Positions 826 through 15,574 of a DNA stretch of 64,000 bases are shown here, one piece after another; the stretch's first letter is position 1, and every line of letters starts with the position of its first letter. The notes under the pieces were generated by a model. The model did not search any database, was not told where the DNA came from, and saw nothing but the letters and a program-made list of their open reading frames with translations. The position numbers and the translations under genes are program-made. Source of the stretch: Leucobacter komagatae (lineage in GTDB: Bacteria; Actinomycetota; Actinomycetes; Actinomycetales; Microbacteriaceae); the NCBI RefSeq assembly GCF_000834055.1, contig NZ_JXSQ01000001.1, positions 248,001-312,000 on the forward strand. The letters are read 5' to 3'.

Positions 826-913
826 GGAGATCATTATCTCAGGCGCTGCTGCGTTCGATTCAATCGCATGATCACAGTAGGTGGAGGCACAGCAATCTTG
901 CCGCGACAATCTA

Positions 914-2011: not shown

Positions 2012-2025
2012 GATCCTTCCTTTCC

Positions 2026-2337
2026 TTAGTTTTTGTGGTAGTCCTCGATATCGAAAACAGTTGCCAGTTTCGCGCTGAGCTTGCCGGCCGGAGAGGGCTT
2101 CACGAGAAGTCTCCAGTTGCCGCTTAGTTCACCCGCCCAGCAGTCGGGGCGCATCGAATCAACATCGTGCCAGTCTCCACCGGGATCGTCCGTCGGCAGG
2201 TCGCCGATCGTATCCGCGGCACGGAGGGCGTTCATCCTCAGCCGCAGCTTCTTCTTAAGATCGGGGCGCTTGCGCTGCATCTCACGCTCGCTGCTGCACA
2301 GCTTCTCCAACTTGTTATTCTTGAATCGCAGTTCCAA
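2026..2337 (-). CDS. higB: HigB/RelE-type toxin
   Basis: A 103-residue RelE/HigB-like ribosome-dependent mRNA interferase. It is short and basic, with an N-terminal helix (KNNKLEKLCSSEREMQRKRP), a central LRAADTIGDLP segment and the C-terminal beta strand pattern typical of HigB (GELSGNWRLLVKPSP, then VFDIEDYHKN). It is first in a two-gene operon, 14 bp before the larger HigA-like partner, matching the toxin-first order of higBA. The promoter must lie in the 260 bp shared with the divergent DUF4062 gene. Catalytic residues cannot be assigned with certainty. Confidence 0.83.
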   Translation of the reverse strand: MELRFKNNKLEKLCSSEREMQRKRPDLKKKLRLRMNALRAADTIGDLPTDDPGGDWHDVDSMRPDCWAGELSGNWRLLVKPSPAGKLSAKLATVFDIEDYHKN

Positions 2338-2597
2338 GTATATGTCACCGATCTCGTTACAGTCCAGGTCAGGGCATACTCACAATTATGCCGGACGACA
2401 CGGATCTGGTGATCTCGACACCCTGACGCCATCAGTTCAACGCGACACCCTCACCTCTGCCCGCAAGCCGGTCCGCTTGCGGCGCATAATACTGGTTGCC
2501 TCTGCAACACATTGCAGGTCGTTACAACCGCCACGAAAGCCCCGCCCGTGAAATTGCCCGGTGGCGGGTTCCTCAACGCGAAAAAGACAGCCCCAAT

Positions 2598-3650
2598 ATG
2601 ATCATGCTTATGGACAAGCGGTATCAGGTATTCATCAGTTCGACGTTCGTCGACCTCATCGACGAACGCCGAGAGGTGATGCAGGCTCTGCTGGAGATGG
2701 ACTGCATGCCAGCAGGCATGGAGCTCTTCCCCGCGGGAAACGATGACCAGTGGACGTTGATCAAGGGCGTGATCGAGCAGAGCGATTACTACCTTGTGGT
2801 CCTCGGAGGCCGCTACGGATCTGTCACAGAAGAAGGTATTAGCTATACCGAGAAAGAGTACGACTACGCAGTCGAGCTCGGGATACCGGTAATGGGTTTC
2901 GTGCCGGCCGACATGGACGAGATTCCCGTCGGCAAGACGGACAAGAACGAGGCTGCTGCGCAGAAGCTCGATGAGTTCCGCGCCAAGGTCCAGAAGCGGA
3001 TGACCAAGGAGTGGAAGAACGCTGAGGATCTCGGCTCGAAGGTCACTCGCGGTCTGATGCACTTGATCAAGAACAATCCGCGGCCCGGCTGGGTGCGAGG
3101 CGATCAGGCAATGACCTCGGAGACCAGAATCCAAATCGCCGAGCTCGAAGCGAAGATTGCGAAACTAGAGAAGCAGGAAATCGAGACTGGCAAAAGCGCA
3201 GCTTCGGAGATCGACAGTAGTTTTGCACACGGCCAGGAAGAGGTCGAGGTTACCCTAGTTCACAAGGGCTACAGCAGCAGTTATGGACGGATCGAAGAGC
3301 TCGGTGATCTCAAGTACACGTGGGACGAGATCATGGAAGTTCTTGGGCCTTTCATGATCGACGAAGCACCAGAACCCTCCCTGCGGCGCACCTTCAATAG
3401 TCACATGCTCAGCGAGATCCAAGCTGACCCCGAAGGATGGACAGACGACATGTCTAACGAGTCTGCGGAGATCTCGGACAAGTCGTGGGGTTCGATCATC
3501 GTCCAGCTGCGGGCGCTGCGCCTCATCACGACCGGCACGAAGAAGCGGACGGTTAGCGATAAAGCCGTTTACTGGAAACTGACGCAGGCAGGTGACGATT
3601 ATCTGGTCGCGCTGCGGGCCGTGCCGAGCAGTGTTCGTGCTCACGACTGA
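2598..3650 (+). CDS. DUF4062 domain protein
   Basis: About 350 residues. The N-terminal ~100 residues are a clear DUF4062 domain (RYQVFISSTFVDLIDERREV, then MELFPA, IEQSDYYLVVLGGRYGS and EKEYDYAVELGIPV), an alpha/beta fold related to TIR and deoxyribosyltransferase-like domains. DUF4062 is often an N-terminal module of large signalling or defence proteins; here it is joined to a short coiled coil (around residues 175-200, IAELEAKIAKLEKQEIE) and an unrecognised C-terminal region of about 130 residues. ATGs at 2598, 2604 and 2610 are all possible starts. It diverges from higBA and sits among restriction and abortive-infection genes, so a defence role is plausible but unproven. Confidence 0.75.
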   Translation: MIMLMDKRYQVFISSTFVDLIDERREVMQALLEMDCMPAGMELFPAGNDDQWTLIKGVIEQSDYYLVVLGGRYGSVTEEGISYTEKEYDYAVELGIPVMGFVPADMDEIPVGKTDKNEAAAQKLDEFRAKVQKRMTKEWKNAEDLGSKVTRGLMHLIKNNPRPGWVRGDQAMTSETRIQIAELEAKIAKLEKQEIETGKSAASEIDSSFAHGQEEVEVTLVHKGYSSSYGRIEELGDLKYTWDEIMEVLGPFMIDEAPEPSLRRTFNSHMLSEIQADPEGWTDDMSNESAEISDKSWGSIIVQLRALRLITTGTKKRTVSDKAVYWKLTQAGDDYLVALRAVPSSVRAHD

Positions 3651-3672
3651 GACCGTTTGTCTACCTGCAGGC

Positions 3673-3805
3673 TCGTTCAACAAACGGCCATTAGTTGAAT
3701 CTGAACACCGTGGCCGCGAAGCCGCTGTACCGGTGCAAATAGTGTTCAAAAACTCGTTCAGTAACCAGTAAGGTTGGGAGTAGATAGTGAACAGGTTTTC
3801 TGAAC
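3673..3805. promoter_or_regulatory. Res-like array of six GTTCA half-sites before the serine recombinase
   Basis: Copies of GTTCA read on the plus strand at about 3675, 3744 and 3755, and the complement TGAAC occurs at about 3702, 3788 and 3801. Three forward plus three inverted half-sites could make paired subsites, as in Tn3-family res sites. The last half-site lies directly before the GGAGG ribosome site of the recombinase, so binding could also repress its gene. The repeats are visible; recombination function is inferred. Confidence 0.45.
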
Positions 3806-3818
3806 GGAGGTGACGCGC

Positions 3819-4397
3819 GTGGCACTCGTGGGACTCGTGCGTGTGAGCACGAAGGGTCAGGACACCGCACGACAGCACGACGTGCTCGACCCGATCTGCG
3901 TCAAGGTGTTCGAGGAGAAGGTCAGCGGCAAGCTCGCGGTCAAGGACCGCCCGGGGCTCACTGCTGCACTTGACTACCTGCGCGACGGGGACATGCTCAC
4001 CGTGCAGGAGGTGGACCGTCTGGGCCGGAACCTTCTCGAAGGGCTCATCGTACTCACCGAACTCTTCGAGCGCGGTATCTCGGTGAAGGTGCTCGACGGC
4101 ATCGCCGCTGGTGAGCACACGGAGCGGTCGCTGATCCTTGACCTTGCTCTCGCTCTCGCGGAGGATCGCCGCCGCGACATCAGCCGCAAGACGAAGAACG
4201 GCCTCGAAGCCGCACGCAAACGTGGCAAGGTCGGCGGCCGGCCTCGCGTGATCGACGACGACAAGCGTGCGGTCATTCTTGCGCGCCGCGAGAAGGGGGA
4301 GTCGATAAGAGTCATCGCTCGGGTGCTCGACGTCTCCGTGGGCAGCGTGCACGCCGTGCTCTTGGAAGAGAGCGCAAAAGCTGAGGCGAATGCATGA
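3819..4397 (+). CDS. Small serine recombinase (resolvase/invertase family)
   Basis: A 192-residue site-specific recombinase. The catalytic serine lies in VGLVRVSTKGQDTARQHD at the N-terminus, followed by the family motif VDRLGRNLLEGL and the RRRDISRKTKNGLEAARKRG arginine-rich segment, then a C-terminal helix-turn-helix (IRVIARVLDVSVGSVHAVL). Length and domain order match Tn3/Hin-type resolvases rather than large serine integrases. The GTG at 3819 is preferred over the in-frame GTG at 3810 because GGAGG at 3806-3810 sits eight bases before it. The stop overlaps the next start by four bases. It probably resolves multimers or inverts a segment of the island, using the GTTCA array upstream. Confidence 0.88.
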   Translation: MALVGLVRVSTKGQDTARQHDVLDPICVKVFEEKVSGKLAVKDRPGLTAALDYLRDGDMLTVQEVDRLGRNLLEGLIVLTELFERGISVKVLDGIAAGEHTERSLILDLALALAEDRRRDISRKTKNGLEAARKRGKVGGRPRVIDDDKRAVILARREKGESIRVIARVLDVSVGSVHAVLLEESAKAEANA

Positions 4398-4930
4398 TCG
4401 TTTACCCTTCCGGCCAGGAGCCAGACTTCTGGGACCCGAACCCGGCCGACGCCCGGCACCGCTTCGCGCTCGGCAGGATCGCTGCCTGCTCGCCGGGCTC
4501 GCCGCCGTTCGTGGCGATCGGCATGAACCCGTCGCACGCCCGCGAGACCGAGTCTGACAGGACTGTGAACCACGTCATCGACGTGTCGACTCGCGAGCAC
4601 TCGGGATGGCTCATGCTAAATCTCTACCCGGAGCGGTCTCCCAAGCCGAAGGCGCTCAGGCCGTATGATGCGGGGCTCTCCGCTGCGAACTGCGACGCTA
4701 TCCAGCACGTGCTCGACCTGGTGGGCGCGACCGAGGTGCTCGGAGCCTGGGGCAACATGGGCGGCTCCGCGACGCTGAGGCGAGCACTGCCCGACGTGCA
4801 GGCCTTGCTCGACCGGATGAGCGTGAGGGCGTACACGCTCGACGCCCTGCTCAAGACGGGGAACCCGGCGCATCCGCACCCGCCGGGCCGGCCGTTGCCG
4901 ATGCTCGGGCCGAAGAGGTATCTGTCGTGA
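4394..4930 (+). CDS. DUF1643 domain protein
   Basis: A 178-residue protein recognisable as DUF1643: FVAIGMNPSHARETESDRTV at about residues 38-57, then WLMLNLYPERSPKP, VLGAWGNMG and the closing GNPAHPHPPGRPLPM. DUF1643 proteins are frequent on phages and mobile elements and their function is unknown. The ATG overlaps the recombinase stop (ATGA), so the two are translationally coupled. Family assignment is good; nothing in the sequence reveals an activity. Confidence 0.8.
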   Translation: MIVYPSGQEPDFWDPNPADARHRFALGRIAACSPGSPPFVAIGMNPSHARETESDRTVNHVIDVSTREHSGWLMLNLYPERSPKPKALRPYDAGLSAANCDAIQHVLDLVGATEVLGAWGNMGGSATLRRALPDVQALLDRMSVRAYTLDALLKTGNPAHPHPPGRPLPMLGPKRYLS

Positions 4931-4998
4931 GCGCCTCTGCCAAAATGGTCGCAACGCGCGGAGATTGTCATGTCGGTCACTTTTGAGAGAATGGACTT

Positions 4999-5907
4999 GT
5001 GAACCATATTAACTCGGCTGTCCTGGAGCAGGTGTCCGCCGAGTTGCAGGCCTACGTGTACGTGCTCGTAGATCCGGCCGACGGTGTTCCGTTCTACGTC
5101 GGCAAGGGACAGCGGATGCGCCATGCGGCACACCTGGCCGAGGCACTTATTCCGATCGGCGAAGACGATGAGGAAGGTGTCAGATCGAGGAAGCTCGCCA
5201 GGATCGACGCAATTCTGGCTCGCGGCGAGGAGCCAGAGGTGTGGATACTGCGCTACGGATTGCGAGCGAGCGAGTACACCGCAGTCGAAGCGGCCGCAAT
5301 CGACCTGCTCATGAGTTTTCCGATCGAGGCAGACCACTCGAACGCCCCGCTTTCCCGATCGTCCCAGCTCACGAACGCTCGACGTGAGCGGGCTCGCGGA
5401 CACGGGGTCAGGCTGCTTTCCTCCTTGATCGAGGATTTCGCTGCACCACCGCTGACCACGTCTGAGCCGTTGCTTCTAATCACACTGAACGGCTGGGACG
5501 ATCATCCTGAGGGCGAGCCTGTGGCCGGGGGCAGGATGAGGTATCGCGTGGGCTACAGTCCCGAATGGCTGGCCTCGGACGCCAGGAAGCGCGCCTACGC
5601 GGAGATCGGCGACTCGGTCTCGGCCTGGTGGAGCCTCGATGTATCAAGGATCGAGCGGCTTGGCATCAGGCACGTGGTCGCGCTGCATCGGGGTGTTACG
5701 AGGGCGCTCTTCGAGATCGTGCCAGATTCTTGGGAGTTCGACACGAGCAGGGTCGACAAGAACGGCCGGACGATCACGAAAGTCGCATTCCAGGTCGAGG
5801 TTGTCGACTCCGGGCCCCTGTTCGATGCAACGGTCGGCCCATACGGGCGGCGTGTTCCCGAGCGTGCCCGAGGCTCTCAGAACGCGATCTACTACTGGCC
5901 GAGATAG
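4999..5907 (+). CDS. GIY-YIG (LEM-3-like) nuclease-domain protein
   Basis: A 302-residue protein with an N-terminal GIY-YIG-type domain: AYVYVLVDPADGVPFYVGKG at residues 18-37, then RMRHAAHL and a later EAAAIDLL that may supply the active-site glutamate. The variant YVGKG form is the one found in LEM-3-like and COG3680 proteins. The C-terminal ~150 residues (from LLITLNGWDD) are not recognised; a similar second domain occurs in this family. Start is GTG 4999, shortly after a GAGAGA stretch. It follows DUF1643 by 68 bp on the same strand. Probably a DNA endonuclease of the island; defence versus mobility cannot be separated. Confidence 0.75.
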   Translation: MNHINSAVLEQVSAELQAYVYVLVDPADGVPFYVGKGQRMRHAAHLAEALIPIGEDDEEGVRSRKLARIDAILARGEEPEVWILRYGLRASEYTAVEAAAIDLLMSFPIEADHSNAPLSRSSQLTNARRERARGHGVRLLSSLIEDFAAPPLTTSEPLLLITLNGWDDHPEGEPVAGGRMRYRVGYSPEWLASDARKRAYAEIGDSVSAWWSLDVSRIERLGIRHVVALHRGVTRALFEIVPDSWEFDTSRVDKNGRTITKVAFQVEVVDSGPLFDATVGPYGRRVPERARGSQNAIYYWPR

Positions 5908-6063
5908 GCACGCTCTCGCTACGGTTATTTCCGAACGTGGACTCGGGCCCTGAGAATCCAGTGCTGTGACGGCAACGGGGACGAGCACAACCACATATCT
6001 GCACAGAGCGCGGAGTACCCGGAGATCACGAGCGCTTAGTCGGCCCTTGCGCCGCCTAAGAAC

Positions 6064-6097
6064 AGAGACCCCGAGGCGGTGACGCCCCGGGGTCTCT
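6064..6097. terminator. Bidirectional hairpin terminator
   Basis: A 10-bp perfect stem (6064-6073 with 6088-6097, arms ending CCCCG/CGGGG) lies between the converging GIY-YIG gene and the minus-strand small-gene operon. There is no long T run. Confidence 0.6.
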
Positions 6098-6101
6098 ATG
6101 G

Positions 6102-6356
6102 TCACTCCATCGCATGTCGCGCGGGCAGGTTGCCGAACCAGCCCGCTGCCAGGCGGTAGGCGGTGAGCCTGTGCTCGGGGTCGGCGCTGTGCTTGTCTAT
6201 GCGGATGGGCCGGCTGTGCCTGCCGGGCTGCATCTCTGTCACGATGACGGCGTTCTCCGGGTCGTGCGCATCGGCGACGATCGAGAAGCTCGGCAGCGGC
6301 GCGTCGTGCGCCCGCCGCCCGGCAGCCGCGAACCTGGCCTCGTGAAAGCCGGGCAC
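6102..6356 (-). CDS. Small unrecognised protein, last gene of the ssb-dprA operon
   Basis: An 84-residue frame read from GTG 6356, with G or C at most third codon positions, as in its neighbours. Visible segments are LPSFSIVADAHDPENAVIV, RPIRIDKHSADPEHRLTAY and a final GWFGNLPARHAME. I do not recognise the family. No good ribosome site precedes the GTG. The preceding gene's stop instead overlaps an ATG at 6504 that opens a different frame, so this may be the second half of one protein joined by a +1 shift. Confidence 0.5.
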   Translation of the reverse strand: MPGFHEARFAAAGRRAHDAPLPSFSIVADAHDPENAVIVTEMQPGRHSRPIRIDKHSADPEHRLTAYRLAAGWFGNLPARHAME

Positions 6357-6504
6357 AGGGGACGTCCCTGGCGACCCGAGGAGTGACGCTCCGGTCGAGC
6401 TCGCGGATGGTGCACGGGTTGTGCGGCAATGCGCCGCGGGCTGGGCAGCTGACCGCGAGTTTCAGCCCGGTGCTGTTCCTCCGCAGCAGGCGATCGTCAC
6501 TCAT
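6350..6504 (-). other. Upstream coding segment out of frame with 6102-6356
   Basis: The ATG at 6504 overlaps the stop of the preceding gene and opens a plausible N-terminus (MSDDRLLRRNSTGLKLAV, then CTIRELDRSV). After about 50 codons the frame degenerates into arginine-rich, non-coding-like sequence, while the +1 frame becomes the good 84-residue frame. Near the crossover is CCC TGT GCC, a CCC-U string that could allow +1 slippage. Either a natural frameshift product, a decayed gene or a sequencing indel. Confidence 0.35.
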
Positions 6505-6787
6505 CGGCGTCTTCTTCTTCCCTTTCGACCTCGTTGCCGTCCTCGTCGTACTTCGTCCAGCCCTGATTGAGCCCTTCGAGCTCCTCGTAAGTGAACTCGC
6601 CGTCAGGGGCGATGGTGTACAGCCGGACCGTGTGGTCGTCGATGATCAGCTCGGCGTAGAGCGAACCGTTGGGCTCGCCGTTCTCGTCGGTGATCTGCGC
6701 AAGGAACGGCGTGTAGCCGGCGTAGATGTAGTCGATGGTGGCCCACTGCTCGTCGGTGGGCTCGACGTGGATGATTCTTCGTGCCAT
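6497..6787 (-). CDS. Unrecognised acidic 96-residue protein
   Basis: Starts at ATG 6787, seven bases after a strong AAGGAGG. The protein is acidic, with RRIIHVEPTDEQWATIDYIY at the N-terminus, a central ELIIDDHTVRLYTIAPDGEF and a Glu/Asp-rich end (VEREEEDADE). Codon use is like the neighbouring operon genes, and the stop overlaps the next ATG. No family is recognised. It belongs to the island operon that begins with ssb and may be a small accessory or anti-defence factor; that is only suggested by context. Confidence 0.6.
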   Translation of the reverse strand: MARRIIHVEPTDEQWATIDYIYAGYTPFLAQITDENGEPNGSLYAELIIDDHTVRLYTIAPDGEFTYEELEGLNQGWTKYDEDGNEVEREEEDADE

Positions 6788-6806
6788 TCTCAGGCCTCCT
6801 TCTGTT

Positions 6807-7142
6807 CTATGAACGATGAGCGCTCGGTGCTTCGAGCACGCGCATGCGCTGCACCCAGGAGCCGAACGGCCCGACGCTGAGCTCTTCCACTAACTCGCAG
6901 ACGCCTGCTGTGACGAGCGCCGTCGGCAGGCCGCTGTGCTCGCTGTAGTCACGGACGAACACCTCGCCGGGGAGAGCGACGTAGCCGTCACTGAGCAGGC
7001 TCACGGTGAGGACCTCCTCCTCGCCCGACTCAGGATCGACGAGGCACAGCGCGGCCTGCGCGGCGTCGTAGTGGAGATCTCCGTCCAGTTCGATCTCGCT
7101 GAGCTTGAGCGACAGCGCTTCGCGATAGATCTTCCAGGTCAT
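6807..7142 (-). CDS. Unrecognised 111-residue protein of the island operon
   Basis: ATG 7142 shares its A with the stop of the preceding gene (TGATG), so translation is coupled. The sequence begins MTWKIYREALSLKLSEIELD, continues LHYDAAQAALCLVDPESGEE and has a beta-rich centre (VLTVSLLSDGYVALPG). No transmembrane segment or known motif is visible. It is followed 19 bp later by the acidic 96-residue gene. Real coding is supported by codon bias and the start/stop arrangement; function is unknown. Confidence 0.6.
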   Translation of the reverse strand: MTWKIYREALSLKLSEIELDGDLHYDAAQAALCLVDPESGEEEVLTVSLLSDGYVALPGEVFVRDYSEHSGLPTALVTAGVCELVEELSVGPFGSWVQRMRVLEAPSAHRS

Positions 7143-7351
7143 CACCTGCCCCCTTCTTCCTCGCGCCGGTACACGGCGTGCCCGAGCTGATTGAACCCGG
7201 CGAACGCGGCCGGCCCACCGAGCGCGAGCTCGGCGGCACGTAGCGCGAGCGCCGGAGCCGTGTGGAGCGGGACCATGACGGCGTCCCCGCGGTCGAAGAC
7301 GAGCGACCTGGCCCTCACCTGTTCGGCGAGGCTGTAGCCCTGGGGCTTCAC
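7142..7351 (-). CDS. Unrecognised 69-residue protein
   Basis: GTG 7351 overlaps the dprA-like stop by four bases (GTGA). The protein begins MKPQGYSLAEQVRARSLVFD and has a hydrophobic/alanine-rich centre (APALALRAAELALGGPAAF) and a charged end. It has no recognised motif. Coupling on both sides argues that it is a true operon member. Confidence 0.55.
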   Translation of the reverse strand: MKPQGYSLAEQVRARSLVFDRGDAVMVPLHTAPALALRAAELALGGPAAFAGFNQLGHAVYRREEEGGR

Positions 7352-8289
7352 GGCCGTCTCCTCTCGTTATGGCTCAGCCCGAGCAGCCGGAGCGCCTCCT
7401 CGCCGTCTGCAACCAGCTGCGCTGTGCCCTGCTGCAGGAGCATGTGGCAGCCCGCACTCGCTGCGCTTGTGACCGGCCCCGGCACTGCGCCGACTCGCCT
7501 GCCGAGGCCGTGCGCCTGCTGCGCCACCTGCAGCGCGCCAGAGCGCGCTCCGGCTTCTGGAACAACCACTGCATCCGCGAGCGCAGCGATCACCCTGCCG
7601 CGCATGAGGAACCGCCAACGGGTCGGCGCTGTGCCCGGGAGCACTTCGCTGACGGTGAGCCCCGCCTCGGCGATCCGCTCGATGAGCTCCCGGTGGCCCG
7701 CGGGATAGGCTCTGTCCACGCCGCTCGCGAGCACCGCGACGGTCTTGCCGGCGGCCGCCAGTGCCGCACGGTGAGCCGCGCCGTCGACGCCGTAGGAGGC
7801 GCCAGCCAGCACGGTGACGCTGCGCTGCGCTGCGTGATCTGCGATCTCGCGGGTCACGTGCTCGCCGTAGCCGGTGCAGGCGCGGGCGCCGGTGATCGCA
7901 AGGCTCGGCTTCTGGAGCAACGCAACGTCGCCGCGAGCCCAGAGCATGAGGGGCTGAGCCGGTGCAAGCGGGTCTGCGCTTTCTTGGTCGCCGAGGCGCG
8001 CAGGCCAGAGCTCGTCGCCGGGCAGCAGAGCCGTGAGACCTGCGGCCAGTGCCTGCTCCAGCTCGCGCTGGGCCTGCGACATGTCGTGACGGGCGAGCCA
8101 CTTCTCAGCGAGCGGCGCATATGACGCGTTCACGACGCGCTTCCTGATCTGCTCGTCGATGGACGCGAGACGGTCGAGCGCCTCTGCAGCCCCGAACGCG
8201 TTGATCAGCACCGCTGCCGCGCGGTCGCCGGGCTCGACGATGCGGCTCCAGGCGAAGCGCGCGAGGAGGTCTGCGTCTCTGGTGCTCAT
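7348..8289 (-). CDS. dprA: DprA/Smf-family DNA-processing protein carried by the island
   Basis: A 313-residue DprA-like protein. The Rossmann-type core is complete: SLAITGARACTGYGEH, GASYGVDGAAHRAAL, VLASGVDRAYPAGH, then WRFLMRGRVIAALADAVVVP and SGALQVAQQAHGLGR. The N-terminal ~100 residues resemble the SAM-like part of chromosomal DprA. Chromosomal DprA loads RecA on ssDNA during transformation; here the gene lies between DUF4192 and small unknown proteins in an operon led by ssb, which suggests handling of single-stranded element DNA. ATG 8289 overlaps the DUF4192 stop (ATGA). Because comM is interrupted nearby, this is probably distinct from the core dprA that normally follows comM. Confidence 0.83.
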   Translation of the reverse strand: MSTRDADLLARFAWSRIVEPGDRAAAVLINAFGAAEALDRLASIDEQIRKRVVNASYAPLAEKWLARHDMSQAQRELEQALAAGLTALLPGDELWPARLGDQESADPLAPAQPLMLWARGDVALLQKPSLAITGARACTGYGEHVTREIADHAAQRSVTVLAGASYGVDGAAHRAALAAAGKTVAVLASGVDRAYPAGHRELIERIAEAGLTVSEVLPGTAPTRWRFLMRGRVIAALADAVVVPEAGARSGALQVAQQAHGLGRRVGAVPGPVTSAASAGCHMLLQQGTAQLVADGEEALRLLGLSHNERRRP

Positions 8290-8873
8290 GATCTGTTCTC
8301 CTGACTGCCGGAGGCGCACATCTGTGCCGCCATATTTGTGATCTCGTCGGGGTCCTCGGCCGTCCGGCCGGGGTGCTGGGCGCGCCACTCGTCGACACCG
8401 AGCAGCACGTGGTCAGGGTCGTAGAGCGGGCTCTGCTGGATCTCGTCGAGGCTATGTAGCTGAGGGAAGTTTGTCCCGACGAAGCTCGCCCAGCCGTCTG
8501 AGCCGACGGCGAGGGCGTCGCGAACTGAGGCGCCGGCAGCGTGTAAGACATCAGCCAGCACGCCTGTGAGCGTGCCGTGCGGGCTCGACACGGGCTGCTT
8601 GGAGAGCTGAGCGTCAGTGTTGACTACAACGGCCACGGCGTCGCTTTTGAGGGCGATCTCGGCCACCTGGCGCAGCCAGTGCTCGATCTCGTCACCGGGG
8701 CGCTCTAGCTGTTCCAGCGGCGGCAGGTCGATGCGGGCTGCGCCGAGCGTGCGCTTGCCGTCGAACAGCACGACGAAGCAGCTCTCGGGCGCGGTCATGC
8801 CCGTGAGCCGGGGCAGCGCGGCGAGGAAATCAGCGCTGCTCGTGGCGCGGAGGACGGTGGGCTGTGCTTTCAT
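8286..8873 (-). CDS. DUF4192 domain protein
   Basis: A 195-residue protein matching the actinobacterial DUF4192 family: TSSADFLAALPRLTGMTAPE and SCFVVLFDGKRTLGAARIDL near the N-terminus, AVAVVVNTD in the middle and DALAVGSDGWASFVG later. The family often occurs on actinobacterial mobile elements and is of unknown function. ATG 8873 follows AAGGAG by about eight bases and overlaps the upstream stop (ATGA). The family is firm; the activity is unknown. Confidence 0.8.
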   Translation of the reverse strand: MKAQPTVLRATSSADFLAALPRLTGMTAPESCFVVLFDGKRTLGAARIDLPPLEQLERPGDEIEHWLRQVAEIALKSDAVAVVVNTDAQLSKQPVSSPHGTLTGVLADVLHAAGASVRDALAVGSDGWASFVGTNFPQLHSLDEIQQSPLYDPDHVLLGVDEWRAQHPGRTAEDPDEITNMAAQMCASGSQENRS

Positions 8874-9253
8874 GGTCGTGCTCCTTGAATCTTCTTGATG
8901 GTTCCTTGAACGAGGCGCCAGGCGTCGGCGTCGACGGCAGTACCCTGCTCGGCGAGCTCGACGAGAGTGTTGAGGCCCGCCAGGGTGTCCTCGTCAAGAA
9001 CGAGGACTCTGTCTCCGTCGATCTCGACGGCTGTGTCATCGCAGTAGGCGCTGACGCTCAGCAGGTATCCCGGCGAGCCGTCGGCTGTGTTGTGGTCAGG
9101 GCGCTTGCCGACGATCGTGAACACAGTGGCGCTCTCGTCGTCGTCGAAGTCGACGTAGCCGTAGTGGTCGTTGTCCGTGAGGCGCCAAGGCTGGGGTTCC
9201 AGGCGGTCGCCGGTGTCGTATGGGGTGAGCGATGGGGTCAGTGAGGGGGTCAT
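8870..9253 (-). CDS. Unrecognised acidic 127-residue protein
   Basis: Begins with a short tandem PSLT repeat (MTPSLTPSLTPYD), then PWRLTDNDHYGYVDFDDDES, a beta-rich ATVFTIVGKRPDH segment and a helical C-terminus (TLAGLNTLVELAEQGTAVD). The protein is strongly acidic. Its start and stop both overlap neighbours by four bases (ATGA), which places it firmly in the ssb-DUF4192-dprA operon. No family is recognised; the acidity could fit a DNA-mimic or protein-binding accessory, but nothing further supports this. Confidence 0.6.
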   Translation of the reverse strand: MTPSLTPSLTPYDTGDRLEPQPWRLTDNDHYGYVDFDDDESATVFTIVGKRPDHNTADGSPGYLLSVSAYCDDTAVEIDGDRVLVLDEDTLAGLNTLVELAEQGTAVDADAWRLVQGTIKKIQGARP

Positions 9254-9483
9254 GATGTCTTCTTCTCTCCTCTTTGTGCGTCGCGGGCACGGCCGATCAC
9301 CAGGAGCACCGCGCCGAATGCGGCGAACAGGACGGCGCGCCCGAAGAGGCTCGTACCGTCGGCGATTACGAGATCATTGAGGGCGAGGCCGATGGCGCTG
9401 CCCACGACGACGGTGACGCCGAGGATCGTGAGCGTGGACGGGGTGCGCTTTGAGGCGGTCATTTCGGGTCCCCTCGTGCTCAT
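9250..9483 (-). CDS. Small two-helix membrane protein
   Basis: A 77-residue protein with two predicted membrane helices (about 18-36, LTILGVTVVVGSAIGLAL, and 47-64, AVLFAAFGAVLLVIGRA) and a basic C-terminus (RARDAQRGEKKTS). It has no signal peptidase site. It is coupled by ATGA overlaps to ssb upstream and to the acidic protein downstream. Small membrane proteins of this kind are common in conjugative or entry-exclusion operons; the role here is unknown. Confidence 0.6.
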   Translation of the reverse strand: MSTRGPEMTASKRTPSTLTILGVTVVVGSAIGLALNDLVIADGTSLFGRAVLFAAFGAVLLVIGRARDAQRGEKKTS

Positions 9484-9884
9484 GCCTGAGCCTTGTCTGT
9501 GCTTTCCTCTGCGTTCTCCGTGCCGCGCGTGAACTCGCTGGTGCCCCAGAACAGGTCGTGTCCCATGCGCTCGGCGTTGATGGTGTGCTTCGCGATGGAG
9601 CCGCCCCGGTTCCAGAGCAGCACCTCCTTAGCGGTGCCGGTCACGAGCAGACGGTCGCCCGGCTTGATGCTCTGCGATGCGTTCACGGCGAGCTGCCGGA
9701 ACGCGTTCACTGTGTAGTACACGGTGCGCTTCGCGCCGCGACGTGGCCCCTCCTGGACCGCCATCTCGAATGAGACGTAGGGCTGGCCCAGCTTCGTGGT
9801 GCCGTATTTGACCGTGTCCCCGACGACGCCGGACACGGTGATCTGCTTCTGTGCTTGCTTTTGCTCAGACATGGCTGTGCTCAT
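9480..9884 (-). CDS. ssb: Single-stranded DNA-binding protein (OB fold)
   Basis: A 134-residue SSB-like protein that leads the island operon. The OB-fold pattern is visible: ITVSGVVGDTVKYGTTKLG, YVSFEMAVQEG, TVYYTVNAFRQLAVNAS and KPGDRLLVTGTAKEV. It lacks the usual acidic SSB tail motif (DDDIPF-like) and ends ESTDKAQA, so interaction with host repair proteins may be lost. Starts at ATG 9884 or 9872 are both possible, and neither has a strong ribosome site. It probably coats element ssDNA during transfer or replication and is expressed together with the dprA-like gene. Confidence 0.82.
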   Translation of the reverse strand: MSTAMSEQKQAQKQITVSGVVGDTVKYGTTKLGQPYVSFEMAVQEGPRRGAKRTVYYTVNAFRQLAVNASQSIKPGDRLLVTGTAKEVLLWNRGGSIAKHTINAERMGHDLFWGTSEFTRGTENAEESTDKAQA

Positions 9885-10009
9885 TTCTGTTGTTCCGTGA
9901 TGCCAACAGAGCCACAGCCCGCAGGGCTGCACCTCTCAAAGTTCTTCCCGGGACGGGCTATGCCCGGCCCCAACACTCGCTTCCTCGCTCGCGCAGGCGA
10001 GCGGAATAG

Positions 10010-10050
10010 AAGCAAGAACCCCGAGGCATCACGCCTCGGGGTTCTTGCTT
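10010..10050. terminator. Strong 18-bp hairpin terminator
   Basis: A perfect 18-bp stem (10010-10027 with 10033-10050) encloses a five-base loop, and the right arm is followed by TTC. It lies upstream of the ssb operon and just before the zinc-finger gene, and could stop transcription in both directions. Confidence 0.7.
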
Positions 10051-10068
10051 TTCACGCAGTGTCCGCCA

Positions 10069-10099
10069 TTGACAGCAGATAGCTCAGTGCGCGTAGAGT
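10069..10099 (+). promoter_or_regulatory. Possible promoter for the small zinc protein
   Basis: A perfect TTGACA (10069-10074) and a TAGAGT (10094-10099) are 19 bp apart, which is wide. The ATG follows only seven bases later, which would give a nearly leaderless mRNA. Confidence 0.3.
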
Positions 10100-10105
10100 C
10101 GCAGG

Positions 10106-10318
10106 ATGAGCGACGACGGTGTTGAAGTCCCCGACGACCTGGAGATCCGTGTCGGTGACGGCACGGGTAACGAGCAGTACCGCATGTGCCAGGAGTGCGG
10201 CCGCGACTGCGTGCCGGAGCCCTTCGACGCCGGTACGGGCGACGGCATTAGGGTGGCGTTCTCGTGCCCTGAGCACGGCCTGCACGCTGTGGTTGACCCG
10301 TTCGAGCACTTGCGTTAA
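10106..10318 (+). CDS. Small zinc-ribbon-like protein
   Basis: A 70-residue protein with an acidic N-terminus (MSDDGVEVPDDLEIRVGDG) and candidate metal ligands in YRMCQECGRDC and FSCPEHGLH. Third-position G/C is high, as in true genes of this genome. The start ATG has only a weak upstream GCAGG. It is flanked by two hairpin terminators and stands alone on the plus strand. No family is recognised. Confidence 0.5.
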   Translation: MSDDGVEVPDDLEIRVGDGTGNEQYRMCQECGRDCVPEPFDAGTGDGIRVAFSCPEHGLHAVVDPFEHLR

Positions 10319-10336
10319 CGGGGACATGAAAAGCAA

Positions 10337-10364
10337 GAGCCGCCACGGTCGCCCGTGACGGCTC
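10337..10364. terminator. Hairpin terminator after the zinc-ribbon gene
   Basis: Twelve-base arms (10337-10348 with 10353-10364, GAGCCGCCACGG with CCGTGACGGCTC) pair with one mismatch around a short loop, 20 bp after the stop. Confidence 0.6.
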
Positions 10365-10401
10365 CAGGTGCGGTCTGTGCGCGTGGCACAGCCGCTATTG
10401 T

Positions 10402-10466
10402 CGTGCCTCAGCCGGAATCCAACCGGCCTCGTCTGCAGACTGTCCACTCGTCCTCGTGGGCGCACG
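10402..10466 (-). ncRNA. tRNA-like fold A (65 nt, non-canonical)
   Basis: On the minus strand a five-base end stem (10462-10466 with 10402-10406), a CCAC/GTGG arm, a short GTC/GAC arm and a good T-like arm (10411-10427, stem GCCGG/CCGGC, loop TTGGATT) follow in cloverleaf order. It is shorter than a tRNA and the anticodon arm is poor. It could be a tRNA relic, an attachment relic or a structured RNA. Confidence 0.3.
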
Positions 10467-10467
10467 C

Positions 10468-10544
10468 GCTCACTGCGAGGAATCGAACCTCGCGTCCCTT
10501 AGGGCGACTCAGAGCACCGAGCCACGACTCGCAGGAGAGTGCTC
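10468..10544 (-). ncRNA. tRNA-like fold B (77 nt, non-canonical)
   Basis: It begins one base from fold A on the same strand. The T-like arm is excellent (10475-10493, stem CGAGG/CCTCG, loop TTCGATT). A CGAG/CTCG D-like arm is present and the end stem pairs at five of seven positions. No normal anticodon stem could be drawn, so no amino-acid identity is given. Confidence 0.35.
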
Positions 10545-10585
10545 CCGCTCTATAGCGGAAGAGAACTCCTGTCACTCACTCACCC

Positions 10586-10629
10586 GGGCGCGGCTGTGCC
10601 GCGCCCCAGCGCCTGACGTCGTCAGGCGC
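10586..10629 (-). terminator. Double hairpin after the abortive-infection gene
   Basis: Two GC stems follow the stop on the minus strand: 10609-10617 with 10621-10629 (nine bases, loop GTC) and 10586-10593 with 10599-10606 (eight bases). They probably separate the gene from the tRNA-like folds. Confidence 0.55.
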
Positions 10630-10641
10630 ATCATGACTTGT

Positions 10642-11466
10642 TCAGACCCGTCCGCCGCTCATCTGGCGGTCGTACGTGCTCAGCATGAGCTCGGCGACGT
10701 GGACGGCCTCCCGGACGACGTAGATCGCCGTCTCCTCGCGCAGCGCGGTCGGCAGCGTCCTTCCGTGGCCGGTGCCGTGGTCGTTGCGGAGATCGTTCAC
10801 GGACTCGATGACCGTCTTGGCCGACTGGTAGATCGCCCTCACGGCCGTCGCTCCGGGGACCGAGTCGTCGACGACCTTGAACTCGAAGTTGAGGCGGTCG
10901 AACGACAGGTGGATGAGCATCGGCCACTTGGGGTTCTTGGGCAGCGGCATCCCGCTGCCCTCGATCACGAACTTCATGACCGCTTCGAGGAGTTCCTTGG
11001 CGAAGCCGAGCGCCGCGGCAGGATCGTCGATGTTCCTGCGCAGCCGTGCGAGCTGCTCGTCGAGTGCGGCGCGACCGCCAGTCTCCAGGTCGATCGCGCC
11101 GAGCCGCTCCAGTCGACCCTCCTCGGTGAGCGACCAGCCGACGTGAGCGAAAGCCGACCGGAGAGTCGCGATGTCAGCCGCGTTGTCGTCGTCGTTGAAC
11201 GAGCCTTTGCGGCGAAGCGCGTCGAGGATGCCGTCTGCGAGCTTCTTCGCATTATCAGGCTTCTTCTCAGCCACCCGGCAGATCGTGATGACGCGCTGCT
11301 GCTTGCTCGGGCCCTGTACGTTCGGGTCGTACTTGTAGTCGTCGAAGGAGCCGAGGCCGGCGGCGCCGAACGCGCGTGAAAGCTCTCCGTGCGAGGGGCC
11401 GGCCCCGCCGAAGAAGAACTGCGCGAGCGCGGCGCCGGTCTCGCCGTTGATCGGGTTGTTGCTCAT
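10642..11466 (-). CDS. Abortive-infection (Abi_C-type) family protein
   Basis: A 274-residue protein. The C-terminal ~100 residues carry the Abi_C hallmark, an arginine/asparagine-histidine-glycine string (NDLRNDHGTGHGR) followed by helix REETAIYVVREAVHVAELML. The N-terminal part (LSRAFGAAGLGSFDDY, then VITICRVAEKKPDNAKKLAD and a helical LRSAFAHVGWSL segment) is not recognised, but resembles the N-terminal region of other Abi_C proteins. Abi_C proteins are associated with phage-triggered growth arrest. The gene lies 74 bp after the 477-residue protein, on the same strand. Family moderately sure; mechanism unknown. Confidence 0.65.
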   Translation of the reverse strand: MSNNPINGETGAALAQFFFGGAGPSHGELSRAFGAAGLGSFDDYKYDPNVQGPSKQQRVITICRVAEKKPDNAKKLADGILDALRRKGSFNDDDNAADIATLRSAFAHVGWSLTEEGRLERLGAIDLETGGRAALDEQLARLRRNIDDPAAALGFAKELLEAVMKFVIEGSGMPLPKNPKWPMLIHLSFDRLNFEFKVVDDSVPGATAVRAIYQSAKTVIESVNDLRNDHGTGHGRTLPTALREETAIYVVREAVHVAELMLSTYDRQMSGGRV

Positions 11467-11539
11467 GCCTCACCATTCTGCCGCAACCTGGGAGACGCGA
11501 GTGCTCGCCCTGCCGAAGCGAGCAAGATGAGCAGTGGGC

Positions 11540-12973
11540 TCAGCCCCTGTACGTCGACTCCGGCCCGTACGCGCTCCACCCGCCCATGAACGGCTGCAGT
11601 GCTTTCTCCGTGGCTTTCGGCGGCTCCGGCAGGCGCAGCCGCTGCCGGAGCGGGTCGACGCGGTCGGCGTATTCGCGGGTCCACTGGGCCCATTCGAGGG
11701 CCTCGCGGCGCGCGTCGTCGTCAGGCTCGGCGAGGGCGCGCTGCTCGACAGCGTCGGCGTACTCGCGGATGTCGGCTGCCCTCTTCCACCTCTTCGCCTG
11801 CTCGGCGAGCTCCTTGGCCCGGTGGCTGTCCGTGAGCTCCTGCACGGCCTGCTCGCGGGCGATCTCCCACCTACGCTGGCGCTCGATGCGGGCGCGCTCC
11901 GCAGCCTCCCTGCTGCGCTCTTCGGCCTCGTGCCGGAGCTCCAGCTCCTGCAGCACCTGCGCGAGGGAGTCCTCAAGGGGGCGGTCGGCGGTGTCCTTCC
12001 ACTCCGAGCCCCAGAAGCTGACGCCGTGGGTCTCGACGCGGATGCCCAGCCTCTCTGTCGGCACGACGTCCCACTTCTGGACCCAGTGACCCTGCTCGGC
12101 GCGCTTGGCCTCGGTCTTCGAAAGGACGTGCTCGAAGTTCTTGCTGATCTGGAAGAGGCTCAGCCGGTATTCATCGGGCCCGAGCACAAGCATGAGGTGC
12201 CCCTGATTCCGGTCGTACTTCTGCACGTAACCCCAGCGATCCTTCGGCGGAGGCTTGATGAACTTCGCCTTGTGGCCTCGCAGCTCCGCCTCGGCGACGA
12301 GCGCCTGCGCGAGGCGAAGGGCACGGTTCTTCTCACTGGCGCTGATCTCGAAGTCCTCCCGGTCGCGGAGATTCTTGACCACTTCGGAGGCCCCGCGAAG
12401 GGACGCCGGCACGGGCACCGGGTCGAGCACGCGCATGCGCCACTCGGGCAGCGGGTGCAGCCGCACGCAGGCGGTCCTCTCGCGCCAGTCGCTCTCAACC
12501 GTGACCTGCATGCCCTCCGGGACCTTCTTGAAGCGCTCGGCGGTCTTCGCGAGCTGCTCGTACCGGTGATGCTCGTCGTAGTCGATCTCGATCCGGTTGT
12601 CCGGGGCCGCGAGCAGCGCTGTCATCATTGCTGCGGTGGGGCCCTGCTTGCGGACTGCCGGCTTGCGGGGAGCCGGAGCAGGGGCCGAGTCGCGGCTGGG
12701 TCGTTCCGCCGGTGACGGGGCCTTCTCGTCTGCGGCGGGTCGCTCGCTGTCTTCTTGGGGCGGGTAGTCGCCATGATCGGCGTAGTAGGCGCCGTCTTCC
12801 GTGATGGACGCCTGCCATTGCTTGCCGTGCCCCTTCACCTCGACCAGGCCGCGGTTGTGCAGCGCGCGGGCGACGATCCGGTGCTCGTAGCCCTCGTACA
12901 CCCCGTCCGGCGCGCCGTCCCGCACCCAGGTCAGGACTTCGAGCTGCGCGGTGTTGAGCGGGAGGCGAGGCAT
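11540..12973 (-). CDS. 477-residue winged-helix/coiled-coil protein of unknown function
   Basis: The N-terminal ~75 residues look like a winged helix (LNTAQLEVLTWVRDGAPDG, then IVARALHNRGLVEVKG). A Pro/Ala/Glu-rich linker follows, then an unrecognised domain at about 160-330 (KVPEGMQVTVESDW, LVLGPDEYRLSLF and VETHGVSFWGSEW). The C-terminal ~150 residues form a charged coiled coil (ELELRHEAEERSREAAERAR). Start ATG 12973 lies downstream of AGGAGG with a long spacer. Such proteins occur on actinobacterial mobile elements. DNA binding is plausible from the winged helix; replication or partition is only a guess, suggested by the adjacent repeat region. Confidence 0.6.
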   Translation of the reverse strand: MPRLPLNTAQLEVLTWVRDGAPDGVYEGYEHRIVARALHNRGLVEVKGHGKQWQASITEDGAYYADHGDYPPQEDSERPAADEKAPSPAERPSRDSAPAPAPRKPAVRKQGPTAAMMTALLAAPDNRIEIDYDEHHRYEQLAKTAERFKKVPEGMQVTVESDWRERTACVRLHPLPEWRMRVLDPVPVPASLRGASEVVKNLRDREDFEISASEKNRALRLAQALVAEAELRGHKAKFIKPPPKDRWGYVQKYDRNQGHLMLVLGPDEYRLSLFQISKNFEHVLSKTEAKRAEQGHWVQKWDVVPTERLGIRVETHGVSFWGSEWKDTADRPLEDSLAQVLQELELRHEAEERSREAAERARIERQRRWEIAREQAVQELTDSHRAKELAEQAKRWKRAADIREYADAVEQRALAEPDDDARREALEWAQWTREYADRVDPLRQRLRLPEPPKATEKALQPFMGGWSAYGPESTYRG

Positions 12974-13036
12974 GCTGCCATTCTCCTCCTGGGTCAGGCT
13001 AGGGCCCAGGGAACTGCCGGAGGCGGAAGAAAAGGC

Positions 13037-13077
13037 GAAGGCCGCTCCCTGGAGTCCGAGTTCTTGGAGCGGCCTTC
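13037..13077. terminator. 12-bp hairpin near the island's non-coding region
   Basis: Perfect arms at 13037-13048 and 13066-13077 (GAAGGCCGCTCC with GGAGCGGCCTTC) lie just upstream of the 477-residue gene. It could end transcription entering from the repeat region, or act as a regulatory hairpin in the leader. Confidence 0.45.
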
Positions 13078-13204
13078 TGAAAAGGTAGTCGCAGTATGAG
13101 TCCCAACGACTGCCCCTCACGTTAGACGAGTCGATCTACATCGCGAAGCGACGGCCGGCACGGCGTGTCGCGCATCGTGCCGAGCGCCCAGAGGGGCCTC
13201 GGGT

Positions 13205-13345
13205 CGCAGCCACTCCGCTCCCGCTGCGTGGCCGCTGCGTCTCAGGGGGCCTCGGCTCCGCTCCCGCTGCGCCCCGGAGAGGCCGTCGAGGGGGTCTGCA
13301 ACGCCTGGTGGCCCGCGGCTGCGCTCCCGCTGCGCCTCGGCCGGG
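13205..13345. repeat. Three GC-rich direct repeats
   Basis: The string GCTCCCGCTGCG occurs three times (about 13217, 13260 and 13323), each in similar GC-rich context. No protein-like frame is convincing here. This is part of the ~0.95 kb non-coding stretch between the 477-residue gene and comM. Confidence 0.45.
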
Positions 13346-13420
13346 CTGGGGAGGGAGAGCCCCTCGGGCATGAGGTTGCTCGGGCAGACGGGCTGCATTG
13401 GGCGTGCTGCCGGGCGGCTG

Positions 13421-13908
13421 CGTAACGCTGCTTCCGGCCGTGTAACGCTGGCCCCGCGGCTCGTGAGGTGTGCGTTTCTCCTCGTTTACCAGGGGTTTCT
13501 TCGTGCAGGGAGTCTGCTCGCCGGGGCGGGGAAGCCGGTTTTGTAACGCCGGGCCTCCTGGCGTTACAGCAGAGTTACAACAGAACCCGTCTCTGACCAG
13601 GGTTTTCTCTTGAGTGTAACGGTGTAACGCTCTTTCTGAGGAATTGGTATAGAGAAGAAGTAAAATATCAAGACCAACCACCATGCCATGTGTGTACTTA
13701 CGTGCTCTGTATATAATAGGTTTCGCCTTTTCAGCGTTACAGCGTTACGCACCCCGTTCTGCCGCATGATTCCGCGGATCTCGCCGTTTCGCGGCCGTGA
13801 CGCTACTATCCGGCCGCACCGCCGCTCGCGTGCTCCGACGCCCTGTTTTGCCGCATGATTCCGCGGTTTCTCGACGCGTCGGGAAGCGTAACGCTCGTTC
13901 CGTTACGC
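13421..13908. repeat. Iteron-like GTAACGC repeat cluster
   Basis: At least ten copies of GTAACG or its complement CGTTAC occur, at about 13422, 13442, 13543, 13561, 13616, 13624, 13735, 13743, 13887 and 13901. Two tandem pairs with 8-bp periodicity face each other: GTGTAACG twice at 13614-13629 and AGCGTTAC twice at 13733-13748. They flank an AT-rich ~100 bp that contrasts with the GC-rich surroundings. A 17-bp direct repeat (GCCGCATGATTCCGCGG) also occurs at about 13762 and 13850. Arrangement resembles a replication origin or partition/operator region. No replication initiator is recognised in the window. Confidence 0.6.
13712..13717 (+). promoter_or_regulatory. Perfect -10 hexamer inside the repeat cluster
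   Basis: TATAAT at 13712-13717 lies in the AT-rich core, 16 bp before the tandem AGCGTTAC pair. No clear -35 is seen and no convincing coding frame follows, so it may instead be a melting element or a promoter for a short RNA. Confidence 0.3.
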
Positions 13909-14045
13909 TCGGTGGCTTCCGCCCGCTCCGCCGAGCGCAGCCGCGGACGCCTTCCCGCTCACGCCGAGCACCTCCTGGAGGAGGGGAGCCCTCCCTGCCC
14001 GGCAGTAGCCGAGCATCTGCGAGCGGCAGGAACCACGCGCTGAAC

Positions 14046-14110
14046 TGGGGTTTCCCCGCCGTTGCTCACATGCGCAAAAATGTCGTATTGTGCACCCGCA
14101 GAATACGGTC
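14046..14110. mobile_element. Probable right end of the island inside comM
   Basis: ComM similarity stops at about 14090 on the minus strand, after the RILRV codons, and unrelated sequence follows to the stop at 14066. The segment contains ATACGGTCGTAT (14102-14113), an inverted repeat around a GT centre that could be a recombinase core. The exact crossover cannot be fixed without the left junction. Confidence 0.5.
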
Positions 14111-15574
14111 GTATCCGCGAACCGTCAGTGCCCCATAGGCTAATGCGCGGTCGATTGCTGTGGTTGCGTTCACCGGTAGACGCATGGCGTCGCTGCGGAG
14201 CCACTCTCCTGGCACCTCGCTGTTTAGTCGCCAGGGAGTCTCCGCGAGTCTGCGCTGCGCGCGTTCTCTGGCTGTGGCGACGCGCTCGCGTAGTTCGCTA
14301 CTGGCTGGCGCTGAGCCTGAAACGGTGCCGCCCGCCACTACGCTGCTTACTCGCCGCAACGTGAGCCGCAGGTCAATGCGGTCGGTGAGCGGGCCTGAGA
14401 GTCGCCCCAAATATCTGATGCGGGTGTTCGGGCTGCACGTGCACGACAGCGCTGTTTCAGGGGAGCCGGCGTTTCCGCACGGGCAGGGGTTTGCCGCGAG
14501 CACCAGCTGGAGTTTCGCTGGCAAACTCGCGTGCAGTCTGGCGCGCGAGATGGTGATGGTCCCGGACTCCAGTGGTTCGCGAAGATCGTCGAGGACCGCG
14601 CGACCAAACTCAGGTGCCTCGTCCATGAAGAGCACCCCGTGACTCGCTCTCGATATCGACCCTGGCCGGATGCCGCGTGAGTCCCCGCTCCCAACTATCG
14701 CCGCTGACGAGGCCGTGTGATGAGGGCTCTCGAACGGCGGCCTCGTGACCAGCGTGTGGAGCGCTGAGCCGCTGAGCGAGGCGATGCTACTCGCGATGAG
14801 CGACTCGTGAGTAGACAGGTCTGGCAGGATCGTCGGAAGCCGCGTCGCGAGCAGCGTCTTGCCCGAGCCCGGCGGGCCAACGAGCGAAATATGGTGCCTA
14901 CCCGCAGCTGCAATGACCATCGCCTCAACGGCTTCTGGCTGCCCAATAACGTCGGCCATGTCGAAACGCTCGGTTGCCGTGGTTGCAGTGGTTGCCGCTG
15001 GTGCCGATGTCGCGCGCTGTTGAGGCGAGCTTGGAGCCTCAGACCAGTCGCCCTCTGTTCCGCTGTGCCAGGCGGCGGCCCCGCCAAGCGTGCCAGCTTC
15101 AACCACTGTGATTCCCGGGACGAGGCGTGCCTCGTCGCCTGCGACTTTTGGCACCATAACCCGAGAAAAACCGAGCTCCTTCGCTGCGATCACGGCGCTC
15201 AGGAGCCCAGCTGGCCTGCGCAAACCGCCGTCGAGTCCGAGCTCGCCAATGTGGGCCGTAGTGGTGAGCCTGTCGGTGGGGAGTCGACGAGAGGCTGCAA
15301 GTGCCGCAAGTGCGATCGCGAGGTCGAACCCCGACCCCTGCTTGGGGAGTGAAGCTGGCGCTAGATTCACGATTACGAACCGATCAGACAGCGGTAGGCC
15401 AGCCTGCGCTGAGGCCGTTCGGACGCGCTGCTTCGCCTCCGCTAGCGCGGCGTCGGGAAGACCGATAATCGCCATTCCAGGCAACTGTTGAGCGACAGCG
15501 GCCTCAACCATGACGGTGGTGCCCTCAAGCCCGGTGAGGGCAACCGCTGCGGCACGACATACCCCGACGCTCAT
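14066..15574 (-). CDS. comM: ComM/YifB AAA+ helicase, 3' end replaced by the island
   Basis: Mg-chelatase-like ATPase that drives branch migration during natural transformation. The N-terminal domain (MSVGVCRAAAVALTGLEGTT, LPGMAIIGLPDAALAEAKQR, IVNLAPASLPKQGSGFDL), Walker A (GPPGSGKTLLATRLP), Walker B (GVLFMDEAPEF) and the zinc-like ANPCPCGNAGSPE stretch are present. After ALAYGALTVRGYDRILRV the family normally continues for about 30 residues; here it reads only HNTTFLRM and stops. The truncation coincides with the start of accessory DNA. The start overlaps the yraN stop (ATGA). Whether the shortened protein works is unclear; dprA, which normally follows comM, is absent here. Confidence 0.85.
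   Translation of the reverse strand: MSVGVCRAAAVALTGLEGTTVMVEAAVAQQLPGMAIIGLPDAALAEAKQRVRTASAQAGLPLSDRFVIVNLAPASLPKQGSGFDLAIALAALAASRRLPTDRLTTTAHIGELGLDGGLRRPAGLLSAVIAAKELGFSRVMVPKVAGDEARLVPGITVVEAGTLGGAAAWHSGTEGDWSEAPSSPQQRATSAPAATTATTATERFDMADVIGQPEAVEAMVIAAAGRHHISLVGPPGSGKTLLATRLPTILPDLSTHESLIASSIASLSGSALHTLVTRPPFESPHHTASSAAIVGSGDSRGIRPGSISRASHGVLFMDEAPEFGRAVLDDLREPLESGTITISRARLHASLPAKLQLVLAANPCPCGNAGSPETALSCTCSPNTRIRYLGRLSGPLTDRIDLRLTLRRVSSVVAGGTVSGSAPASSELRERVATARERAQRRLAETPWRLNSEVPGEWLRSDAMRLPVNATTAIDRALAYGALTVRGYDRILRVHNTTFLRM

Follow-up and report, generated by a model that had tools for sequence, protein, structure and literature searches.

A 38-kb island with a predicted large serine recombinase in the 3' end of comM of Leucobacter komagatae

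According to those sections of the survey of Durrant et al. (2022, PMC10083194) which deal with target genes, Mg-chelatase-type genes are the targets of 12.4% of the predicted site-specific large serine recombinases (LSRs). The elements treated there and the island of Leucobacter komagatae described here share an LSR as cargo and the same target gene family. In those sections as well as in the comM data below, distantly related LSRs converge on one gene and competence genes are enriched targets. As a broad survey, the same sections do not give positions within comM, a dprA group or the orientation for this family. In the part of PMC9203015 which is concerned with sr1WO of Wolbachia, most of the recombinases target a magnesium chelatase gene; they resemble the present case in being serine recombinases with portions of the target gene on either side of the element, but belong to a phage whose host lives as an endosymbiont in arthropods and nematodes. 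The portions of PMC11472951 devoted to comM report that the gene is inactivated in 22% of Acinetobacter baumannii strains by AbaR and other elements. AbaR/AbGRI and other Acinetobacter islands interrupt comM like the island of this study, some of them with defence genes. However, AbaR is Tn7-like and the interruptions are mostly found in the Mg_chelatase domain, whereas it is the C-terminal domain that the LSR element of this study cuts in two.

Judged by its sequence, the island has the main characteristics of an LSR integrative element. Due to the precedents given in these sources, LSR insertion into comM-type genes is already known and the present element is a well-resolved further case. 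In the literature on comM together with serine recombinases or integrases, and on genomic-island integrases of Leucobacter, the element was not described among the matches listed.

The truncated comM gene and its displaced end

The window, which is the whole stretch of 64,000 nucleotides analysed, corresponds to C1:248001-312000 of the L. komagatae genome (G000; 62 contigs, 3.67 Mb). Its comM frame (14066-15574, minus strand, 502 aa) ends with TVRGYDRILRV-HNTTFLRM-stop, where the eight foreign residues occupy 14069-14092 and the stop codon 14066-14068. The initial annotation had read the gene in the same way, as keeping to the family until TVRGYDRILRV and continuing with eight unrelated residues and a stop, and its estimate of about 30 lost codons is close to the 29 residues measured.

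The missing end is located on the same contig and strand. Mg_chelatase_C (PF13335, 94 positions) was found in two partial matches 38 kb apart, of which profile positions 3-72 lie in the comM part of the window (C1:262084-262305) and positions 66-94 to the left of it (C1:223738-223824). A second, intact comM was not found in the genome, in which the PF13335 search gave these two partial matches only. The frame at the left junction reads VAWTIADLAGRPSPGRSEVAQALTLRGSST-stop, with an overlap between its TGA and the ATG of the gene that follows. That 442-aa gene is called dprA here on account of its homology (49% identity) to the island protein that matches PF02481, and it is followed by a XerC-like gene (called by eye). 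When the flanks are joined at one codon, an uninterrupted ComM frame of 523 aa results, which agrees with the ComM of the congener G006 at 399 of 515 positions.

The element thus delimited comprises 38,278 bp (C1:223816-262093), with its last base at window position 14093. The only sequence common to both junctions in register is the dinucleotide GT, whose left copy lies outside the window (C1:223814-223815); with this core at both junctions the joined frame is intact, and no base is gained or lost. Regarding the far side of the island, the initial annotation had expected a comM tail with dprA and a short direct repeat at both ends. Tail and dprA are indeed there, but nothing beyond the 2-bp GT is shared. 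The region left of comM, which had been considered accessory throughout, belongs to the island and continues for a further 24 kb to the left of the window (Table 1).

Table 1. Features of the island and of the adjoining comM gene. Positions refer to the window unless preceded by C1.
Feature	Position	Strand	Remarks
Right part (14 kb) of the 38,278-bp island	1..14093		remainder to the left of the window, LSR gene first
LSR gene, 487 aa	C1:223844-225307	+	left island end, outside the window
Probable toxin-antitoxin pair	914..2337	-	HTH_3 914-2011; HigB-like 2026-2337, match under Pfam cut-off
Small serine resolvase, not the integrase	3810..4397	+	Pfam
DprA-like gene (PF02481), distinct from chromosomal dprA	7348..8388	-	Pfam and comparison
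SSB	9480..9932	-	Pfam, PHROGs
Abi_C (abortive-infection C-terminal domain) gene	10642..11466	-	Pfam
526-aa ORF	11540..13120	-	homologue in G003 island; no Pfam or PHROG match
GYGTAACGCT-type repeats, right island end	13420..13902		four copies of one family and inverted copies
Island-derived end of the comM frame	14066..14093	-	last base of Val codon, eight foreign codons, stop; start of right attP arm
2-bp crossover core	14094..14095	-	GT on the comM strand, positions 1 and 2 of the Val codon in RILRV
comM 5' part	14094..15574	-	494 native residues kept, including the Val codon that begins with the core

A natural short form or a frameshift of comM without any island would also give a truncated gene, and the genus does contain frameshifted comM genes (G028, G009). 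The comparison set consists of 60 genomes, G000 included, of which 57 match PF13335. A single match reaching profile position 94 is present in 53 of these 57, and for that reason the short end is not ancestral. The four exceptions are G000 and G003, which have an insertion at the same codon, G034, where the match runs off the contig end, and G028 with its frameshift. In five of the 53 (G009, G020, G024, G033, G036) comM has a split or a frameshift at another place. Since the domain is uninterrupted in most relatives, a natural short end is ruled out; together with the tail that adjoins dprA 38 kb away and with homologous elements at the same codon, this leaves hardly any probability for an explanation without an island. 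The entry of the island into the 3' end of comM, as originally proposed, is therefore upheld.

The putative integrase is encoded directly at the left junction. The start codon of the LSR gene lies 28 nt from the core, inside the left end, and the gene is divergent. The protein matches the Pfam domains Resolvase (PF00239, 2e-23) and Recombinase (PF07508, 1.2e-7), both over cut-off, and Zn_ribbon_recom (PF13408, 9.7e-4) under the curated cut-off; in addition, a PHROG 'integrase' is matched with an E value of 1.8e-86. By these domain matches the integrase of the island is a large serine recombinase, and because of this type of enzyme no direct repeat longer than 2 bp is seen.

AbaR of Acinetobacter has the identical target gene, so that a Tn7-like transposon inserted by transposition has to be considered as well. 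Tn7-like AbaR insertions give a 5-bp target duplication. At the junctions of the L. komagatae island the duplication is 2 bp at most, and a Tn7-type transposase (tni/tns) domain was not detected in the subset of 31 island proteins to which Pfam was applied. In view of the LSR gene 28 nt from the crossover and of seven elements at one codon, transposition of that kind is extremely improbable.

We are thus highly confident that the 38,278-bp integrative island entered comM by site-specific recombination, most likely by means of its own 487-aa LSR. The enzyme would recognise the conserved DNA coding for R-[IV]-L-R-[VL]-A-W and would exchange strands over a 2-bp core, which is GT or CT depending on whether the codon is Val or Leu. 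After insertion ComM consists of 494 of its 523 native residues and eight foreign ones, and the last 29 codons, with dprA and the XerC-like gene behind them, lie 38 kb away. That comM serves as island target in an actinobacterium is confirmed; it is less surprising than the initial annotation had claimed, because Durrant et al. (2022), in the sections referred to above, name homologues of Mg-chelatase/ATP-dependent protease as a leading LSR target.

An LSR attP should form an imperfect inverted repeat about its core; the arms of G000 give at most a weak one (9/20, P 0.08). In the relatives the corresponding values are 13/20 (P 0.001) for G456, 8/20 (P 0.16) for G083 and 7/20 (P 0.29) for G063. 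With just 28 nt between the crossover and the start of the LSR gene, the promoter of this gene presumably lies beyond attP, on its far side. Scanning for sigma-70 promoters gave none in either of two stretches by the island ends, the joined attP not being among them. A promoter read by hand by the right end (TTGCTC-18-TATTGT) is too weak for a claim.

Gene content of the island

Pfam was applied to 31 island proteins and PHROGs to 10, with small ORFs and several others outside these scans. Recognisable genes encode a D5/primase-type helicase (PHROG 864), an AAA ATPase, the SSB, a protein with a weak excisionase-like match (PHROG 66), ArdA, the HsdM, HsdS and HsdR proteins of type I restriction-modification, and Abi_C. 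Further matches were obtained to Hypoth_Ymh, MFS, nitroreductase, DUF4062, DUF1643, GIY-YIG, DUF4192, small resolvase, DprA-like and HTH_3. The GYGTAACGCT-type repeats at the right end are possibly iterons or regulator sites.

The phage-type primase/helicase, the weak excisionase match and ArdA, which is often carried by plasmids or ICEs, would suit a prophage or a conjugative element using the LSR. However, neither capsid, tail nor terminase was found in the subsets of island proteins examined, 31 with Pfam and 10 with PHROGs, and relaxase, T4SS or FtsK-type conjugation genes were likewise not found among the 31. A prophage or conjugative element is therefore rather unlikely compared with a small satellite-like or mobilisable island.

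The island which separates comM from dprA has a DprA-like gene of its own. The 49% identity of its product to the chromosomal DprA refers to residues 49-358, and homologues are encoded in the islands of G003 (65% identical) and G456 (89%).

comM interruptions and their integrases in the Microbacteriaceae

For orientation, the landmarks of the G006 ComM (515 aa) are GPPGSGKT at 227-234 and LFMDEAPEF at 309-317, which we take to be Walker A and Walker B, respectively, NPCPCG at 356-361 and RILRV at 482-486. In the genus set, seven of 54 genomes have a split comM with both halves on one contig; the split is at about 487 in G000, G003 and G456, at about 313 in G020, G024 and G036, and at about 353 in G033. 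In G459 and G034 comM is apparently split, but contig ends break it; in G023 and G027 no match to PF13335 was found.

In the family sample a comM match is present in 361 of 398 genomes. At least 18 of these 361 have a split comM whose halves share a contig and are separated by about 8 kb or more, G251 being included although its last part sits on another contig. Ten splits are at site 313 (G099, G113, G115, G138, G184, G195, G248, G251, G284, G324), five at 487 (G000, G063, G083, G175, G370), two at 353 (G145, G291) and one at 226 (G178). The counts of both sets are lower bounds and some splits may be missed, because they are based on the best match rows and on few scored candidates per genome. 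Excluded from them were contig-end breaks (G332, G203, G265, G124, G227, G380, G424, G333, G459, G034), single fragments (G357, G363, G234, G263, G226, G441, G081), neighbouring pieces that look like the result of a frameshift (G233, G374, G009, G028), genes that are continuous but diverge over one stretch (G062, G082, G155, G208, G266) and genomes with two matches but a high best score (G173, G228, G254, G157, G311, G418).

Site 487, one and the same Val/Leu codon of comM, is occupied by seven elements, which come from five genera of the Microbacteriaceae. An in-frame ComM end results from joining the flanks in all seven (G000, G003, G456, G083, G063, G175, G370), where the 5' half of G083 is represented by its 3' part only and the flanks of G003 enclose 4.8 kb besides the element. 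All seven have an LSR gene at a junction. At site 313 this holds for 12 of 13 elements (the ten family genomes together with G020, G024 and G036); in G115 the LSR is about 1.6 kb from the 3' junction. The integrase at site 226 is an LSR too, whereas a tyrosine recombinase (Phage_integrase) is found at site 353 in three of three genomes (L113:10708-16060, L114:1203-6594, L091:1783-5001). This recombinase is followed by two long ORFs in G033 and G145 and by one visible in G291 before the locus ends. The two ORFs of G033 are without Pfam match, and the set is perhaps a recombinase trio.

Two observations concern site 313. In G284 the first 313 or so comM codons and the LSR gene form one frame of 861 codons (L109:1-2586, plus strand), in which Pfam recognises Mg_chelatase and Resolvase domains together. 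The comM gene of G009 has a one-base frameshift just past the site-313 crossover codon (L082:1760-1860); as a one-base change it cannot be called an excision scar.

With the LSR of G000 as query, relatives at E 1e-30 or better were obtained in 53 of the 398 family genomes. Among 20 relative loci listed, six adjoin comM or its tail, three a part of dprA and 11 neither, so this operon is not the target of every related LSR. At eight loci (L121-L125, L028, L029, L033) an LSR adjoins a piece of dprA, which shares its operon with comM; the break lies at about residue 265-284. They come from G400, G411, G301 and five named records of Arthrobacter, Curtobacterium, Glutamicibacter and Agromyces. G411 is the only one of them for which the two halves of dprA were both located, and the identical LSRs of G400 and Agromyces allii may stem from one genome. 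In G083, which carries a comM-487 element, dprA is split too, with another LSR beside the second half.

The LSR tree was calculated with 41 of 44 candidates taken from the relative loci and the comM junctions; the LSRs of G113, G284 and G178, missed by the custom LSR profile and found by Pfam, are absent from it. The dprA-targeting LSRs form one clade (100/99), and those of comM-313 are one side of a branch (99/96), with the long branch G184 uncertain. The comM-487 label requires two changes, a value as low as that in 0/500 shuffles, and G175 and G370 stand apart from the G000 group. For all labels together four changes suffice, where shuffled labels need 22.5 on average; none of 200 shuffles gave so low a value. 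The LSR phylogeny follows the target gene and site.

Core dinucleotides, orientation and consequences

At site 487 the two junctions agree in G000, G083 and G370, with GT as dinucleotide, and in G063 and G175, with CT. In some elements the junctions have more than 2 bp in common; in G083 they share 8 bp, and the exact core of that element is for this reason not fixed. The G456 element has CT at the 5' junction and GT at the 3' junction (L130, L131), and in the G003 element the cores of the two junctions differ as well. Val and Leu both occur at the crossover codon of these genes, so a G/C mismatch at the core may be tolerated by the element; alternatively, a later mutation may have altered one of the junctions.

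The LSR end points toward the comM tail in G000, G456, G083, G063 and Arthrobacter sp. ES3-54, and toward the comM 5' part in G175 and G370, which belong to another clade, and in G003. The LSR of G456, a member of the same genus, is 97% identical to that of G000, and most of the G000 element is present. The LSR of G003, a single-contig genome, is even 99.4% identical, yet the element is reversed relative to comM. Both elements are colinear, their main common blocks having 78-95% DNA identity with unshared stretches between them, and the similarity begins and stops at the G000 cores (C1:223816, 262093).

Beyond the right arm of the G003 element follow 4.8 kb, a sequence resembling the right arm (by eye) and then the comM tail. 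The 4.8 kb hold accessory genes at L081:1072-5838 (G003:C1:2213072-2217838). They were taken as accessory and not as displaced chromosome, because a search of 14 congeners gave the largest gene in just two, G003 itself and G462, and G006 lacks it.

The G003 junctions would fit a core-driven reversed integration next to a neighbouring remnant. It is conceivable, although we suggest it with reserve, that one LSR family entered the same comM codon both ways and that the natural flip is set by GT/CT changes of the core. Inversion, replacement or later mutation are possible sources of the G003 orientation. A palindromic core was discarded as a cause, for by hand no palindromic dinucleotide suits both G000 and G003. 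If the flip is true, only one of the two orientations places the integrase downstream from the comM promoter, and an opposite-orientation copy, if real, would be a natural test of how strictly a 2-bp core sets orientation.

In L. komagatae itself, the LSR is presumably active and the island may still be able to excise, and comM function and dprA expression would suffer from the insertion. For dprA, loss of the comM promoter is to be expected because the comM stop overlaps the dprA start. The truncated ComM with 494 of 523 residues might retain some activity. Damage of transformation by the island would be plausible. A comEC-type gene is present in the genome.

For a comM island of an actinobacterium, the boundaries, the likely enzyme and the codon of attachment are fixed by this analysis. 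In a single family, four conserved positions of comM serve as points of entry, and dprA, in that same operon, contains a further one. Integrase groups which track their targets would offer matched LSR/attB pairs in high-GC actinobacteria. The islands, which here bring a DprA-like gene, may also serve as a test case for the question whether mobile elements gain by hitting transformation genes.
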